Shown here piece by piece: positions 23,252-53,628 of a stretch of 64,000 nucleotides of DNA. The first letter of the stretch is position 1, and every line of letters begins with the position of its first letter. The translations under genes and the position numbers were made by a program. The notes beneath the pieces were generated by a model. The model had not been told where the DNA came from. It saw nothing but the letters and a program-made list of their open reading frames with translations, and searched no databases. Source of the stretch: Flavobacteriales bacterium (GTDB lineage Bacteria > Bacteroidota > Bacteroidia > Flavobacteriales_D > Sanyastnellaceae); contig JAKVAX010000003.1 of assembly GCA_022447625.1 (NCBI GenBank), positions 186,001 to 250,000 of the forward strand, read 5' to 3'.

Positions 23252-23345
23252 TTAGGCGTTAGGCTACTGGTACTTATTTTTTTGAGTGCTTAGTTCTTAG
23301 TTATTGATTATTGATTGTCGATGTCTAGTTTAGTATTCGATTGAA

Positions 23346-30386: not shown

Positions 30387-31181
30387 ATGGAGAAACAAAC
30401 AAACATGAGTGATCTAGAACTACTAAAGCTCGCCTATGAAGCGGCTTCCAAAGTAGCACCGGTCCTTGTGGAGTTTCAGGAGTGTGGCTTCAAAACGGAA
30501 TACAAAGACGACGCCTCTCCTGTCACTGAAGCGGATATCGCCGCCGACAAACTGATTACAGCGACACTCAAAAAATCAGGACTATTCATCGTCTCCGAAG
30601 AAGGTTCCCGAGCAGACATGTATGCCCGATCGGCACATGAACGTTTCTGGGTGGTCGATCCTCTCGATGGCACCAAAGAATTTATCGCCGGTCGTCCAGA
30701 CTTTACCATCAACATCGGCCTCATCAACCAGGGAACACCCGTCCTCGGAGTCATCGTTCACCCAAGGGTCAATACAGCTTATCTCGGATTAACATCTCTC
30801 GGTTTCACCCAATCAGATTGCCGAGAATCCTTCCCTTCGGAATGTTCTTTCACCACTGAGATACCGACATTAGATATCCCACACACCGCCGTCGTGAGTC
30901 GATCTCACCTCAAAGAGAACACCCTCAACTACCTAGAGGAAATCCGCCAAAAGCATCCACACCTTCAAGTCATTCGCGCAGGCAGCTCACTCAAATTCTG
31001 CAAACTCGCTCTCGGCGAAGCGCACCTCTACCCCCGCTTCTCCCCCTGCATGATCTGGGACACCGCAGCAGGAGACGCCATCCTCAGATCGGTAGGAAAG
31101 AAGATTGTCCAGATGGAGAATGGGGAGGACTTGGATTATGTGGAAGGGAGGCTTGTGAATCCGTCATTTCTCGCGGAATAA
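30387..31181 (+). CDS. cysQ: 3'(2'),5'-bisphosphate nucleotidase CysQ
   Basis: Magnesium-dependent phosphatase of the inositol monophosphatase superfamily that removes the 3' phosphate of PAP from sulfate assimilation. It has 264 residues. Metal motifs: VSEEGS (about 70), WVVDPLDGTKEF and the late WDTAAGDAIL. A second possible start is the ATG at 30405 (MSDLELLKLAYEA), which matches the family start better; the earlier one adds six residues. Codon use is richer in C-ending codons (CTC, ATC, GCC) than in neighbouring genes, a mild hint of different origin. The CGCTCGCGCGGAA sequence at its start (30375-30387) is a one-mismatch relative of the dispersed 13-mer. Confidence 0.93.
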   Translation: MEKQTNMSDLELLKLAYEAASKVAPVLVEFQECGFKTEYKDDASPVTEADIAADKLITATLKKSGLFIVSEEGSRADMYARSAHERFWVVDPLDGTKEFIAGRPDFTINIGLINQGTPVLGVIVHPRVNTAYLGLTSLGFTQSDCRESFPSECSFTTEIPTLDIPHTAVVSRSHLKENTLNYLEEIRQKHPHLQVIRAGSSLKFCKLALGEAHLYPRFSPCMIWDTAAGDAILRSVGKKIVQMENGEDLDYVEGRLVNPSFLAE

Positions 31182-31310
31182 TCGAAAATCGATAAACGAT
31201 AAACGATAATCTATAACTGGTGGCTCGGAATCGAAAATCGATAAACTATAATCGATAACTGATAGCTCGGAATCGAAAATCGGTAATCTAGAACCAAAGA
31301 CCAAAGACCA
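31182..31310. repeat. Left arm: low-complexity ATCGAAAATCGATAAAC repeats
   Basis: About two and a half imperfect units of ~55 bases, each opening GGAATCGAAAATCG and holding GATAAACGATAATC-like words. The arm ends in ACCAAAGACCAAAGACC. It lies just past the 3' end of the four-helix-bundle gene. A 21-base word at 31198-31218 recurs exactly, inverted, at 31894-31914. Confidence 0.85.
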
Positions 31311-31321
31311 ATAACCAACAA

Positions 31322-31708
31322 CTATTTTCCACCATTAGCGTCGTCATCGATTGACCTAGAAAGGTGTCTTTTGAGGCTGTAAAGTTGTTTGATGACCTCG
31401 TCCAAAGCATTCAATAGAGGTCGTGTTTGTTCGGTGGACCAATGATTGATTTTCACACCAATTTCTAGCTGATTAGCCAGTTCAAACGCAGAGCCAATCG
31501 CAATATTCACATGACGTCGCATGAGCTTGTCACTTCCGGCCCCAGATCCTTCAGCAAGATTGAAACAAATTGAAGTAGATGCACGCTTCATTTGATTGAA
31601 GAAATAGAAGTCTTGCGGATCAGCTGATTCCGATATCAAATCATAACAAAGCTTGACTATATCAGCTGAGTCATGCCATACTTTCATGTGATGATATTTG
31701 TAAGGCAT
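31322..31708 (-). CDS. Four-helix-bundle protein (23S rRNA intervening-sequence/S23 family)
   Basis: A 128-residue helical protein of the family found in rRNA intervening sequences and as free-standing genes in Bacteroidetes; the bAvd accessory protein of diversity-generating retroelements has a similar fold. Family features: MKVWHDSADIVKLCYDL, FYFFNQMKRASTSICFNLAEGSG (the FxxQxxRAxxSIxxNIAEG signature) and, later, GSAFELANQLEIG. The start codon at 31708 fits the usual length. It is not inside an rRNA here, and no reverse transcriptase is seen. Repeat arms of opposite orientation flank it on both sides. Molecular function unknown. Confidence 0.9.
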   Translation of the reverse strand: MPYKYHHMKVWHDSADIVKLCYDLISESADPQDFYFFNQMKRASTSICFNLAEGSGAGSDKLMRRHVNIAIGSAFELANQLEIGVKINHWSTEQTRPLLNALDEVIKQLYSLKRHLSRSIDDDANGGK

Positions 31709-31829
31709 GCAACAATAGTATGTGGAAAATCATCACCCACCGCATCTATTTTATGAGCGTAGTTCGAAAGTTTATAGATGAAGAATAAGTACACTGCAAG
31801 CAAGAATCTACAATGAAATCATAGGCCGT

Positions 31830-31960
31830 TGGTCTCTAGCTGCTAGTTGTTGGTCTTCGGTAGTTAGTTCTTAGTTCTTAGTTTTTGGTTCTGAGTTATA
31901 GATTATCGTTTATCGTTTCCAAGGTGGAGAGTTATAGATTATCATTTATCAGTTATTGTT
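31830..31960. repeat. Right arm: inverted counterpart of the left low-complexity repeats
   Basis: TTGGTCTTCGG, then TTAGTTCTTAGTTCTTAG, then AGTTATAGATTATCG and TTATCGTTTCC. Read on the other strand it runs in the same order as the left arm: GATAAACGATAATC words first, then ACCAA-type words towards the gene. Together with the rest of 31709-31955 this stretch of more than 250 bases holds no gene. Confidence 0.8.
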
Positions 31961-31984
31961 TCCTAAAGGGATTAAATACCTTTG
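31955..31984 (+). promoter_or_regulatory. Promoter of the TPP-riboswitch transcript
   Basis: ATTG (31955-31958) as -33 and TACCTTTG (31977-31984) as -7, 18 bases apart. Transcription would begin near 31990, just ahead of the riboswitch aptamer. Confidence 0.65.
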
Positions 31985-31994
31985 TCCCGTCTCA

Positions 31995-32082
31995 AACAGG
32001 GGTGCCTAAAACAAAACGTTGTGGATGGCTGAGATTATACCCTTCGAACCTGCCCGGGTTATGCTGGGAAGGGAGCGGGTTT
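31995..32082 (+). ncRNA. TPP (THI-box) riboswitch
   Basis: The conserved thiamine-pyrophosphate aptamer is visible. GGGGTGCC (31999-32006) forms the first half of the pyrophosphate helix. CTGAGAT (about 32029-32035) is the pyrimidine-binding turn, followed by ACCCTTCGAACCTG and CCGGGTTATGCTGGGAAGGGAG. AAAC near 31994 and GTTT near 32079 can close the basal stem. Between the aptamer and the ATG at 32142 lies a hairpin, GTGTTC-CCCCT-GAACAC (32093-32109), without a T-run. This suggests that control is not by a simple intrinsic terminator. It regulates the TonB-dependent receptor downstream. Confidence 0.93.
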
Positions 32083-32141
32083 AATGATTGACGTGTTCCC
32101 CCTGAACACTGTCGGGAGTTAACAGAAAATTTAGTTACAAC

Positions 32142-34829
32142 ATGAGACGAGTATTACTGGGACTATTTGTCCTACTATTCTCGAGCGCGGCGCTCGCGCA
32201 AAAAGGAACGATCAAGGGGCGCTTGGTCGATGGAAATTCAAATGAATCTTTACCATTTGCTGCGGTCTATGTAGTAGGCACTGACTTAGGTGCAACAACT
32301 AACCTAGATGGGTATTATCAAATCCAAGTGGATCCGGGTGAGTATACACTTGAGTTCAAATTGGTGGGGTATCAGCCAATGCAAAAGAAGGCAACGGTGA
32401 AAGCCGGACAAGAAGTGGCGCTGGATGTCACAATGGCATCGCAACAGGATATTACGGACTATCCGACCAGCGTGCCTGCCATTGATGAGAAGATCATCAA
32501 CTTATCTACAGCATCCATCGCAGTGACAGGGTCGGCTCCGGAGAATGGGGTGTTTGCCTCTTCAGATGTGAGTGCGGCTCAACTGGATAAGTTGAACAAC
32601 GGACAAGATCTACCGATCCTCCTTCGATTTACACCTTCGATCGTGACGACATCTGATGCAGGTGCAGGAATTGGATATACCGGATTGCGTATCCGTGGTA
32701 GCGATCAGAGTCGAATCAATGTGACCATCAACGGGATTCCATACAACGATCCGGAGTCGCAAGGGGTATTCTGGGTGAATCTTCCAGACTTCTCCTCATC
32801 CATTGACAACGTGAGTATTCAGCGTGGTGTGGGGTCTTCAACCAACGGAGCGGGTGCTTTCGGTGGGTCAATTGGACTTCGTACTGACCGTATGGCGCCA
32901 CAGGCTTTTGCTGAGATTACGAACAGCGTGGGATCATTCAACACCTTCCGTCATACGGTAGAATTTGGAAGTGGGTTGATGCCCAATGGTTTTGCCATTG
33001 AAGGACGCCTATCACAGATTACTTCTGACGGATACATTGACCGTGCATCAAGTGACTTGAAGAGCTACTTTTTGAACGGACAGTACAACAAAGGACGCGT
33101 AAGCATCAAAGGATTGGTGTTTGGTGGACGTGAAGAAACTTACCAGTCTTGGTGGGGTGTTCCAGAGGTAGCCCTTGATGGAACCGAAGCTGAAATTCGC
33201 GAGTGGGGAGTGAACAATGGTTACTCTCAACAACAGACAGATGACTTGGTGAACCTAGGGCGTCAATCGAACTACTACACCTACGCAAATGAGGTAGACA
33301 ACTACGCGCAAGATCACTACCAACTGCACTTCGCTTATGATTTTGGCAGCGGATTGGTTTTCCGTGCAGCAGGTCACTACACCTACGGTCGTGGTTATTT
33401 TGAGCAATTCCGCGATAGCGATGATTTGAGCGATTACAACATTGATAACATCATCTTGAACGCCGCGCAGCAATTTGCAGACGCAGAAGACTCGGATGGG
33501 AACCCAACGAACACGACCTTCAATAACAACTATGATTGGGATGAAGTAGAAATCAGCCATACGGTAGTGACTAATCAAAACGGTGACCCGATTACTGATG
33601 GCAGTGGAAATCCGTTGCTGAACTCGATCGCTCAGATTTCAACGAGTGATGTGATTCGTCGCCGTTGGTTGGAGAATGACTTCTATGGTGCCACTTGGTC
33701 ACTTGATTTTACACGTCGTTTCGACAACGATCAATTGAACGCAGTGCTTGGTGGAGCATGGAACGCATACGATGGTGATCATTTCGGTGAGATCATTTGG
33801 ATGGAGCACCCAAACAACTCTGAGTACCAAGATTTCTATTACTTGAACAATGGTTTCAAAACGGATTTCAACTCCTACTTGAAGGTGAACTACCTCCTCA
33901 ACCGCCGCATGAATGTTTACGCTGATCTTCAGGTGCGTCAAGTGACGTATGAGGCGTCAGGAATCGATGCTGATTTGATTGCCATTGACGTGACTGATAC
34001 GCTGAACTTCTTCAACCCTAAGGTTGGTTTCTCGTTTGATGTGAACCGCAATAACATGGTGTATGCTTCGTACGCTATCGGAAATCGCGAACCAACGCGT
34101 AACGATTACATCGATGCACTCGACGGAGAAGCACCTCGTCCAGAACAGATGGGAGACCTTGAATTCGGTTACCGTCGAATCATGCCTCGCTACAACTTAT
34201 TGGTGAACTTCTACAATATGGATTACACAGATCAGTTAGTATTGACTGGTGATGTGAATGATGTCGGTACAGCTATCCGAACAAACGTTGCAGAAAGCTA
34301 CCGTCGAGGAGTAGAGGTTGAGTTCGGTTACCGTCCGTTCAGAAAATTGTTGTTTATAACGAACGCGACATACAGCCAGAATAAGATTAAGAACTTCAAC
34401 GAAAAGGTGATTGACTACGACCAAGGCGGGTTCTTGGAAACAGATCTAGGGGAAACAGATATTTCTTTCTCTCCTGACCTCGTCGCCTCAGCTCAGTTGA
34501 TCTACACTTTCCTGCAGCGCGGACGTATCTCAGGTGAAGTAGCTTGGCAAACCAAGTACGTGAGTGAACAATACTTGGATAACACTTCAAACAGTGAGCG
34601 TGTAATTCCTTCTTACCTCGTGAACGACTTCCGCATGGCGTTTTATGTGCGCGATTGGGGAATGCGTCAACTATCTGTGAACTTCATGGTCAACAACGTC
34701 TTGGACGAAATATATGTGAACAATGGGTATACCTACGGATTCATTGCCGGCGGCGCACGTATCCAAGAAGAGTTCTTCTTTCCACAAGCTGGAAGAAACT
34801 ACTTGGTTGGATTGACCCTCCGATTCTAA
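32142..34829 (+). CDS. TonB-dependent outer-membrane receptor under TPP control (probable thiamine-compound uptake)
   Basis: A protein of 895 residues: signal peptide (MRRVLLGLFVLLFSSAALA, then Q), then a carboxypeptidase-regulatory-like domain (about 22-105, KGRLVDGNSNESLPFAAVYV and LVGYQPMQKK). A TonB plug follows (about 140-255, with GLRIRGSDQSRINVTINGIP and SSTNGAGAFGGSI), and a 22-strand barrel ends in the terminal aromatic GLTLRF. The upstream TPP riboswitch points to import of thiamine or a derivative, as proposed for riboswitch-linked receptors in Bacteroides. The usual partner genes (pnuT, thiamine kinase) are not next to it, so the inner-membrane step must be encoded elsewhere. Its 3' end overlaps a convergent lipoprotein gene by 159 bases. 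Confidence 0.93.
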   Translation: MRRVLLGLFVLLFSSAALAQKGTIKGRLVDGNSNESLPFAAVYVVGTDLGATTNLDGYYQIQVDPGEYTLEFKLVGYQPMQKKATVKAGQEVALDVTMASQQDITDYPTSVPAIDEKIINLSTASIAVTGSAPENGVFASSDVSAAQLDKLNNGQDLPILLRFTPSIVTTSDAGAGIGYTGLRIRGSDQSRINVTINGIPYNDPESQGVFWVNLPDFSSSIDNVSIQRGVGSSTNGAGAFGGSIGLRTDRMAPQAFAEITNSVGSFNTFRHTVEFGSGLMPNGFAIEGRLSQITSDGYIDRASSDLKSYFLNGQYNKGRVSIKGLVFGGREETYQSWWGVPEVALDGTEAEIREWGVNNGYSQQQTDDLVNLGRQSNYYTYANEVDNYAQDHYQLHFAYDFGSGLVFRAAGHYTYGRGYFEQFRDSDDLSDYNIDNIILNAAQQFADAEDSDGNPTNTTFNNNYDWDEVEISHTVVTNQNGDPITDGSGNPLLNSIAQISTSDVIRRRWLENDFYGATWSLDFTRRFDNDQLNAVLGGAWNAYDGDHFGEIIWMEHPNNSEYQDFYYLNNGFKTDFNSYLKVNYLLNRRMNVYADLQVRQVTYEASGIDADLIAIDVTDTLNFFNPKVGFSFDVNRNNMVYASYAIGNREPTRNDYIDALDGEAPRPEQMGDLEFGYRRIMPRYNLLVNFYNMDYTDQLVLTGDVNDVGTAIRTNVAESYRRGVEVEFGYRPFRKLLFITNATYSQNKIKNFNEKVIDYDQGGFLETDLGETDISFSPDLVASAQLIYTFLQRGRISGEVAWQTKYVSEQYLDNTSNSERVIPSYLVNDFRMAFYVRDWGMRQLSVNFMVNNVLDEIYVNNGYTYGFIAGGARIQEEFFFPQAGRNYLVGLTLRF

Positions 34830-52400: not shown

Positions 52401-52411
52401 AGAAATACTTT

Positions 52412-52467
52412 CGTCAACCGTCAACCGTCAACCGTCAACCGTCAACCGTCAACCGTCAACCGTCAAC
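52412..52467 (+). repeat. Eight perfect tandem copies of the heptamer CGTCAAC
   Basis: 56 bases, eight identical 7-base units, ending nine bases before the ATG of the M56 gene and starting at the end of a promoter-like TACTTTCG (52406-52413). It is a candidate slipped-strand (phase-variable) tract. Confidence 0.92.
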
Positions 52468-52476
52468 CGATAAACC

Positions 52477-53628
52477 ATGATCACAGACATCCTTACATAC
52501 AACGCATTCTTACTTGTTTGGTCATTAGCTATGTTCCTACTGACAATGAAGTCTCGACCTGCGAAGTGGTACCGATTTGCATGGCTAGCTGGTCCTTTGG
52601 TGGCTTTGACTCCTTTCCTGGTTCCAAATGGAGCTGTGGAGATGGTATTACCAACAATTGAGTTACCCGTTCTAGAACTGACAGGAGAAGCGGCTGCGTC
52701 ATCTTCAATGTCATGGTGGGCTATGCTCTATGTGGTTGGGATCGTTTCCGCGCTAGCGATATTGTTAGTCAGAATCACCCGACTCATCATGATCCACCGT
52801 AGGTCAACAAGAGACAATAACGTCTATCTATTGGCAGCGCAGGATGTAGATCGTGGAGCATTTTCATTCTTCAAGATGATCTACTTACCAAGCACACTCG
52901 GACCTGATTTGCGATCATGCGTGATCAAACACGAGCAGGTTCATGTGCAGCGCGAGCATAGCCTCGACGTAGTGTTTGTGGAGGTATTGAAAATTTTATT
53001 TTGGTTCAACCCAGCGGTGTACCTGATGAAGGCCGGTCTATCGATTTGTCATGAATACGAAGCGGATGAATTGACTTCAGAAGCCGTTGGTGATGAGCAA
53101 TATGTGAATGCATTGTTGAGCAGTTCTTTCGGACTGAATCACATTGCATCTATCGTTCACCCTTTCAGTAAAGCAAATATCAAAACCCGTATAACTATGT
53201 TACATTCAAGTAAGAAGCTACGCCTAGCGTGGATCCTACCTATGGTTGCTTTCGCAATGATTCTCTCATTGCAAGCATGTACGAAAAAGGCAGACACTGC
53301 CGCAGACGAAAATATCTACGAAACCGTAGATAAGATGGCAGAATTCCAGGGAGGAATGGAAGGTCTGATTACCTACGTTTCCAACAATTTGGAGTATCCA
53401 CAAGAAGCCAAGGATGGAAATATCCAAGGAATGGTAGCGGTGTCTTTTGTTGTTGGTGCCGATGGGAAAGTGAAAGACGCAACAGTCTTGAAGTCTCTGT
53501 CAGAGGCTTGTGACGCGGCTGCACTCTCAGTTTTTAATGACATGCCAGATTGGACTCCTGCCGAAGTAAACGGCGAAACGGTAGCTCAATCATTGACACT
53601 TCCAATTCGATTTCAGATCGATGCCTAA
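52477..53628 (+). CDS. M56/BlaR1-type membrane metallopeptidase fused to a TonB C-terminal domain
   Basis: A protein of 383 residues. TM helices lie near 8-25, 34-52 and 82-105. The M56 peptidase domain follows, with zinc motif HEQVH (152-156) and HEYEAD near 190. A further TM helix (about 248-265) leads to a TonB_C domain (about 290-380, YPQEAKDGNIQGMVAVSFVVGADGKV). The combination is common in Bacteroidetes. It probably senses an envelope signal and inactivates the adjacent BlaI-type repressor, while the TonB domain reaches the periplasm; that role is inference. One exact copy of the 13-mer lies in TM3. Confidence 0.92.
   Translation: MITDILTYNAFLLVWSLAMFLLTMKSRPAKWYRFAWLAGPLVALTPFLVPNGAVEMVLPTIELPVLELTGEAAASSSMSWWAMLYVVGIVSALAILLVRITRLIMIHRRSTRDNNVYLLAAQDVDRGAFSFFKMIYLPSTLGPDLRSCVIKHEQVHVQREHSLDVVFVEVLKILFWFNPAVYLMKAGLSICHEYEADELTSEAVGDEQYVNALLSSSFGLNHIASIVHPFSKANIKTRITMLHSSKKLRLAWILPMVAFAMILSLQACTKKADTAADENIYETVDKMAEFQGGMEGLITYVSNNLEYPQEAKDGNIQGMVAVSFVVGADGKVKDATVLKSLSEACDAAALSVFNDMPDWTPAEVNGETVAQSLTLPIRFQIDA
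52746..52758 (+). repeat. Dispersed 13-mer TTCCGCGCTAGCG, copy in the M56 gene
   Basis: Exact copy, read as Val-Ser-Ala-Leu-Ala within a transmembrane helix. Confidence 0.8.

Follow-up and report, generated by a model that had tools for sequence, protein, structure and literature searches.

Opposite-facing short repeat arrays accompany S23-family genes: a possible stand-alone relative of rRNA intervening sequences

S23-family genes are best known from inserts in ribosomal RNA. One such gene lies between two protein genes in the window studied here (the whole stretch of 64,000 nucleotides from a Flavobacteriales bacterium), framed by repeat arms that face opposite ways, and this raises the question of whether gene and arms form one unit and whether that unit moves. 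An earlier note on this DNA had described both the gene and the arms, and both were found where it placed them (Table 1). The encoded protein exceeds the cut-offs of PF05635 (86.2 bits against 33.8) and TIGR02436 (83.6 against 24). PF05635 is the sole family found in it, and the HUH tyrosine transposase of RAYT-REPIN systems was not seen. Its AlphaFold model has four helices and a mean pLDDT of 93.7, and the best predicted fold match is 2gsc (TM 0.84 by query length). Apart from S23, no ORF of at least 60 aa lies between the arms. The absence of transposase and reverse transcriptase had been pointed out before, and indeed no transposase is present in the unit and PF00078 (reverse transcriptase) had no match in the window's genome, G000, which is 99.8 percent complete; the congeners G012 and G032 have one match each. 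The unit is an S23 ORF within inverted terminal sequences, as in an rRNA intervening sequence (IVS), and insertion in a 23S rRNA helix was not found. The window had no Rfam match at gathering scores, and the neighbours on either side of the unit are protein genes, namely one ending at 31181 and, at 32142-34829, one for a TonB-type receptor (named by eye). A candidate TPP riboswitch at 31988-32091 (+) sits just past the right arm and precedes the receptor gene; it scored 42.9 bits (E 8.8e-7), under the gathering score of 54.3.

Table 1. Features of the S23 unit, in positions of the window.
Feature	Position	Strand	Basis
S23-family (23S rRNA IVP / TIGR02436) four-helix-bundle gene, 128 aa	31322..31708	-	profiles and AlphaFold model
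Left arm, period-7 array, 3' side of S23 gene in coding sense	31182..31321	.	self-similarity
Five G-core heptads, TTGTTGG TTATTGG TCTTTGG TCTTTGG TTCTAGA on minus strand	31287..31321	-	chain of 5, spacing 7
Right arm, period-7 array, mirror image of left, 5' side of S23 gene in coding sense	31844..31961	.	
Exact inverted match, 25 bases, left copy	31194..31218	+	
Exact inverted match, 25 bases, right copy	31894..31918	-	
Leader, right arm to S23 start codon	31709..31843	-	conserved in congener G012

The arms share one mirrored order of words, as had been claimed, with ATCGATA-like words outside and ACCAA-like words inside. The exact inverted match between them is real; given earlier as 21 bases, its true length is 25, compared with a maximum of 12 in 200 Markov-1 shuffles of both arms and of 10 in 200 random pairs of window pieces. 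The defining property of the arms, absent from the earlier note, is a period of 7. Of the lags from 4 to 12, it was at lag 7 that self-similar stretches of the window were most numerous and strongest, among them an array at 52401-52488. The left arm starts immediately past the stop codon of the 30387-31181 gene and contains a 42-nt higher-order repeat, and its run of five heptads lies directly behind the S23 stop codon, on the 3' side and in reversed orientation. Elsewhere in the window, 52412-52469 is a perfect gene-less heptad array (8.3 copies of CGTCAAC) and 23279-23326 is another period-7 stretch (lag-7 identity 0.74).

An association of S23 with repeat DNA, suggested before from this locus, proved to be general. 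The GTDB collection was scanned with 10 S23 proteins, and the best 80 of 581 confirmed loci were analysed, syntenic relatives included (44 synteny groups). Among these best 80, arrays with periods of 5-11 lie within 350 nt of S23 at 24 loci, compared with 42 of 752 other genes of the same loci (Fisher p 4e-10), and on both sides at 9 loci, compared with 4 of 752 (Fisher p 2e-7). Dereplicated to 44 groups, the fractions were 0.30 for S23 and 0.056 for control genes. Where arrays were found independently on both sides, at a slightly lower threshold, the two periods agreed in 10 of 10 cases. Inverted arms were scored by aligning the upstream stretch to the reverse complement of the downstream stretch (score of at least 16). 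They occurred at 33 of 78 S23 loci from the best 80 of 581, compared with 8 of 78 in direct orientation, 4 of 468 mismatched S23 arm pairs and 14 of 752 neighbouring genes. By synteny group, the inverted-arm fraction was 0.44 against 0.12 for direct arms. At least one inverted-arm case was present in 22 of the 43 scorable groups; therefore about half (21 of 43) show none at this threshold. Agreement of period at 33 of 33 loci of this arm set is partly built in, because both stretches were aligned first. Position relative to the gene is narrow: the downstream arm begins within 10 nt past the stop codon at 17 of 33 loci, and the upstream arm ends 0-128 nt ahead of the start codon at 32 of 33. 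Comparison of arm sequences at other S23 loci of the window's genome, as the earlier note had proposed, showed quite different heptads at several of them. The association of S23 with opposite-facing arms is genuine and not confined to this locus, and no description of it was found in the titles, abstract openings and passages available from the open-access literature. In phages there was no S23 match. That S23 sets array density was considered and rejected: 160 kb of four S23-free genomes held 0 arrays with periods 4-11, yet 240 kb of arbitrary stretches from six S23-rich genomes held only 3 period-7 arrays, and therefore density is not simply set by S23.

A closer inspection of the 5'-side arms, read in the coding sense, revealed a repeat of A-G-(T/G) plus four or five letters that vary, and with it an AG core every 7 or 8 bases. 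This core scored 12.88 at period 7 (n=19) against at most 11.1 in permuted controls with equal restarts, and 9.23 at period 8 (n=12) against at most 7.0. G exceeds C on the 5' side in 82 of 88 labelled loci, with the reverse in 6. With one locus per synteny group the counts are 36 and 4, and the window, with its reversed arms, belongs to the rarer state (4 of 40 groups). The labelled sets used for the core, unit counts, period tree, dN/dS and the dereplicated 40 were picked for having matching arms. Five units were counted upstream in 24 and downstream in 25 of 34 Flavobacterium units, syntenic loci included; shuffles nearly always gave 1-2. With one locus per synteny group (n=40) the mode is weak, five units being found upstream in 12 of 40 (followed by four units in 7) and downstream in 8 (four in 7, three in 6). 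Both solved S23 structures, 2gsc and 2rld, to which the model of the window protein is similar, have five chains each, which does not of itself give the state of the window protein.

Array period clusters on the S23 tree as a tendency at best. When 59 of the 88 labelled loci were put on a tree after partial dereplication, the 7/8 label needed 8 changes, and 0 of 500 shuffles were as low; on a tree of 40 proteins, one from each synteny group, it needed 7 against a shuffled mean of 9.1, and 32 of 500 were as low. A rule that period follows the protein was dropped, the signal being strong with syntenic loci present and weak once fully dereplicated. In one octamer group, the final letter is uniform across the units of a locus, either T or A, apart from single exceptions at 5 of 34 loci. 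This letter changes once on an S23 tree of 54 rows (52 different), where the A-type members come from Bacteroidota, Thermodesulfobacteriota, Elusimicrobiota and Pseudomonadota. Residue 84 tracks the type, being K in all 27 T-type proteins and mostly F or Y in the A-type. As a specificity residue K84 was nevertheless rejected: the association is clean, but letter and residue switched once on the S23 tree and therefore give no independent evidence of recognition. Maintenance of an RNA stem in the sense transcript was also rejected, wobble-type mismatches numbering 127 against 172 of the A-C type (93 loci), which is the wrong direction. Transversion-type mismatches between arms (476) outnumber those of transition type (299).

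The window's genome contains 10 S23 genes. Inverted arms of distinct heptads flank several of these, for example GGTTCTT / ACCAAGA at L006, GTTCGTG / ACCACGA at L008 and ATTGCGG / ATCCGCG at L009. Three of the ten genes (L004, L006 and L009) carry an internal stop codon. In the complete congener G012, S23 is present at 8 of the 10 corresponding places. At the window place, flanks and gene are conserved in G012 and both arms are altered by whole heptads; at L010/L114 the arms differ, as does much of the S23 sequence. The L120 place has about 19.5 kb of other sequence in place of the unit. A site without the gene, which the earlier note had proposed to look for, was found at the L124 place, where the G012 sequence is 173 bases long, lacks S23 and carries other heptads. 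In G032, a more distant member of the genus, inverted heptads but no S23 come after the counterpart of the upstream gene (by eye). Conserved synteny of the gene together with lack of the arms in close relatives had been named beforehand as evidence against a mobile unit; synteny was kept in one congener, but so were the arms. Concerted evolution of arms was sought between G000 and G012 and gave no signal (mean score 23.3 within and 22.4 across genomes, eight ortholog pairs). Two further observations concern L121 and L111. A segment at L121 4715-7981 that includes the S23 gene is inverted between two congeners relative to L111, and at the S23 locus L003 the arms contain a longer palindromic repeat, GCCTTCGGC-like with AGCATGATT, and not plain heptads.

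Arms without the gene, the other observation named beforehand as counting against the unit, do occur, so that these counter-indications were found in part. At least 45 stretches of G000 are similar to the left arm of the window (40 of 74 candidates scored), of which 42, by position, adjoin none of the 10 S23 genes. Arbitrary stretches yielded 3 arrays in 40 kb of G000, 13 in 120 kb of G012 and 2 in 60 kb of G032. In 17 of these 18 arrays, the match to S23 arms of the same genome was better than to equal-sized foreign arm sets in at least 19 of 20 draws, and own arms were better than those of one other genus member, at equal arm numbers, in 15 of 18. A first form of this test, with 34 comparisons, had used unequal arm numbers and 17 stretches of which 6 were picked for known arrays; it was repeated on the 11 arbitrary ones with equal numbers. 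In the six chosen stretches (L150, L151, L152, L155, L156 and L157), 16 of 16 favoured own S23 arms. Gene-less arrays in the window's genus thus carry the arm words of the resident S23. They are longer than five units (median 6.9). An arrangement of these arrays as inverted doublets was rejected, an inverted partner lying within 450 nt in 6 of 36 cases and a direct one in 3. Outside the window's genus, a match of distal array words to the nearest S23 was partial only, own arms being in the top 5 percent in 19 of 54 cases, clustered in few loci.

One intergenic site could be followed through the genus Flavobacterium. A unit-spanning match was present there in at least 38 of 111 genomes, plus one in two pieces; 34 of these units were read, three with shortened S23 frames. 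Sites from 36 other genomes were fetched, of which 5 carry a different S23 subfamily with TTTAAAC arms (two with broken frames), one is masked and 30 hold hairpins, gene-less arrays or almost nothing. By eye, CCTCTCC / GGAGAGG hairpins replace the S23 unit at L299, L302 and L320. Within the 34 units, each arm resembles the other arm of its own unit more than it does the corresponding arms of sister species (mean percentile 0.77, p 8e-6). The pair L268 and L281 has flanks that are 94-100 percent identical up to the neighbouring stop and start codons, S23 genes that are 71 percent identical and arms of different type. On the flank trees, T/A type needs 12 (downstream), 11 (upstream) and 10 (both) changes, about as many as shuffled labels, compared with 1 on the S23 tree; the starred branches of the flank trees force 6, 9 and 6 changes, respectively. 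In 31 of 31 units the type is identical in both arms. Taken together, this pair, the contrast between flank and S23 trees and the agreement of the arms indicate that the gene and both its arms are exchanged jointly between species, as one cassette whose edges lie at the neighbouring genes. On the downstream-gene tree (54 rows, 20 of the 36 fetched sites used), the three states of this S23, other S23 and none need 12 changes.

Transposed copies of the Flavobacterium type-1 unit were looked for and not found: among 199 genomes, all 17 matches to an A-type unit of at least 75 percent over at least 300 nt lie at this same site. Three short matches (75-76 percent, 90-144 nt) were also seen, of which that in G296 lies elsewhere. 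The second S23 subfamily occurs at the Flavobacterium site and in other places, with about 76-78 percent identity over the gene. No target-site duplication, which the earlier note had proposed as a test, was seen by eye at the Flavobacterium site or the L124 site, where the junctions lie within repeats. Self-expansion of the gene was not borne out, given that S23 is syntenic in the congener both at the window place and at 7 of the 9 remaining loci of G000 and that the close, long matches in Flavobacterium are all at one site. Median dN/dS of S23 was 0.14 (47 usable of 60 sampled pairs, with a median dS of 1.35, near saturation), and from these comparisons S23 appears to be under purifying selection. 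In another set, of 42 sequences, 10 were dropped, three of them with stop codons.

The association of S23 with such arms extends to a genuine 23S rRNA IVS, the setting in which S23 genes were first seen according to the earlier note, and this case came from plasmids. S23 was found in 32 plasmid records, mostly cyanobacterial. Eight were fetched, seven with a stand-alone S23 and one, Azospirillum AZO_p2, with an S23 unit inside a 23S rRNA gene (LSU model, 2529 bits). The Azospirillum IVS ends in period-7 arms whose match spans 36 positions, 5 of them mismatched; these arms have a GA core and five heptads on each side, and fold to a long RNA stem. In Coxiella, the IVS has tandem GACAGAT heptamers ahead of the S23 start codon according to the passages available from PMC4990558, which term the functionality and origin of rRNA IVSs unclear and draw no link between the heptamers and S23 genes elsewhere. 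From Azospirillum and Coxiella it follows that known IVSs (two cases) and stand-alone units share one architecture. Among the seven stand-alone plasmid loci, inverted arms scored at least 16 in four (L400 still scoring better in direct orientation), L402 and L405 scored 15.0 and 14.5 and L401 had none. Two cyanobacterial plasmids carry S23 with flanking repeats among CRISPR-associated genes, between cas6 and cas4 at L400 and between cas10 and a cmr3-type gene at L405; a figure legend in PMC10910872, among the parts available, lists the 23S rRNA IVP among CRISPR adaptation-linked proteins.

The reading that we tentatively prefer, at somewhat under an even chance, is that the unit is a stand-alone relative of the 23S rRNA IVS, in which a pentameric S23 wraps its own array of about five units, and that it is a site-faithful cassette spreading by allele replacement. 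Such a cassette would consist of an arm, a leader, the S23 gene and a mirrored arm, each arm being an array, often of about five AG-core units of 7 or 8 bases. S23 would form a five-fold ring that wraps the single-stranded form of its own array, one unit per subunit, and this wrapping could both mark the two ends of the cassette and bring them together. The trp RNA-binding attenuation protein (TRAP) is a ring that binds regularly spaced triplets, one per subunit; it is unrelated to S23 and serves as a borrowed model for the putative S23 ring, whose binding would be analogous. Cutting and joining would be done by host enzymes. The cassette may be long-lived at its site and would presumably spread by replacing the allele there. 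In lineages such as the window's genus, in which the arrays have become numerous, the gene-less copies carry the arm words of the resident S23, much as REP sequences do for RAYT genes. We infer recognition of the arms by S23, the pentamer in solution and the mode of spread. The mobile unit of the earlier note was therefore partly right: units change as cassettes at one Flavobacterium site and gene-less arrays carry resident S23 words in the window's genus, which fits an exchangeable, site-faithful, IVS-like cassette, but not one that transposes itself. A bolder extension, which we think rather unlikely, is that S23 proteins are five-fold rings reading cognate five-unit arrays in a widespread class of site-faithful, homing-like selfish cassettes, of which the 23S IVS was the first found, and that gene-less arrays of some lineages depend on the resident S23. 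If S23 does read a five-unit array, the function and origin of rRNA IVSs become testable. Such reading of arrays by S23 would also give a cause for part of the heptanucleotide repeats reported in bacteria, and would add an element in which a gene moves and evolves jointly with the sites it recognises.

Exchange at one site can stem from ordinary homologous recombination, and trans-species allelic types would yield the same tree pattern. In one rival reading, S23 is a resident, TRAP-like RNA-binding protein of the host that binds this array both in the leader of its own mRNA and in further transcripts and controls translation or read-through, with inverted arms serving both directions and exchange reflecting homologous recombination at a polymorphic locus. 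Such host regulation agrees with the purifying selection (dN/dS 0.14), with synteny kept over the long term, with the closeness of the upstream arm to the start codon (0-128 nt ahead at 32 of 33 loci) and with the confinement of close, long unit matches to one site. However, control of its own mRNA needs one arm and both are kept, the downstream one starting no more than 10 nt past the stop codon at 17 of 33 loci. Patchy presence, two S23 subfamilies and S23-free alleles at one site and the same kind of unit within a 23S rRNA gene also argue against it, and we consider regulation of the host unlikely.

It is improbable that the arms count in themselves, as hairpins or bidirectional terminators, with S23 merely tolerated in their loops as in those of rRNA. 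The Flavobacterium site does also have simple hairpins and gene-less arms, G032 has the upstream-gene copy followed by inverted heptads without S23 (by eye), and the Azospirillum arms form a long RNA stem; yet G-U is not in excess of A-C (127 vs 172, 93 loci), the arms share a core, whose G falls on the 5' side for 36 of the 40 groups, and arbitrary stretches of the six S23-rich genomes, 240 kb in all, contain only 3 period-7 arrays. Neutral mutation, with slippage making arrays of period 7 or 8 and template switching at quasi-palindromes copying arm to arm, would leave functionless repeats. It could explain why arms turn over faster than flanks between congeners, why own partner arms match best (mean percentile 0.77), the excess of transversion-type (476) over transition-type (299) mismatches and the weakness of the five-unit mode beyond one site. 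A core common across phyla, the enrichment of arrays at S23 over neighbouring genes and a five-unit count held at one site despite changes of letter nevertheless make it distinctly improbable. An autonomous transposon with terminal inverted repeats, moving to new sites, is scarcely credible: the ends are inverted, the second S23 subfamily occupies at least two different Flavobacterium places and 2 of 10 S23 loci of G000 are without a counterpart in G012, but the unit is without a transposase, 17 of 17 matches (at least 75 percent over at least 300 nt, 199 genomes) lie at one site and no target-site duplication was seen (by eye).

Among known systems, Avd of diversity-generating retroelements (4dwl, 8ub7) resembles S23 in predicted fold: the model of the window S23 aligns to 4dwl chain D with a TM of 0.74 by query length (Foldseek E 0.15), a less sure match than that to 2gsc, and homology of S23 and Avd is stated in the passages available from PMC10053308. 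Diversity-generating retroelements differ in that the window's genome has no PF00078 reverse transcriptase. The TAACTGA heptamer repeats of Beggiatoaceae, Cyanobacteria and Bacteroidetes (MacGregor 2015, PMC4679880), as described in the parts of that text available, are likewise period-7 intergenic arrays, often just ahead of start codons and with other heptamers mixed in. They are, however, mostly direct repeats of a single word, and the terms S23 and four helix have 0 occurrences in its text. RAYT-REPIN systems, in the portions available from PMC3116915, are like S23 units in that repeats flank a gene, that the gene copies are single, distinct and seemingly unable to move themselves, and that gene-less repeats are dispersed; gene-less repeats with the words of the gene's flanks are present in the window's genus (17 of 18 arrays). 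In contrast, S23 is without the HUH transposase fold and S23-type gene-less arrays are mostly unpaired (6 of 36). The 23S rRNA IVS differs from the window unit in its location, the latter lying between protein genes and not in rRNA. In the passages available from PMC4990558, the IVS with an S23 ORF (Coxiella, Leptospira) nevertheless has the same protein family and inverted ends in common with it.
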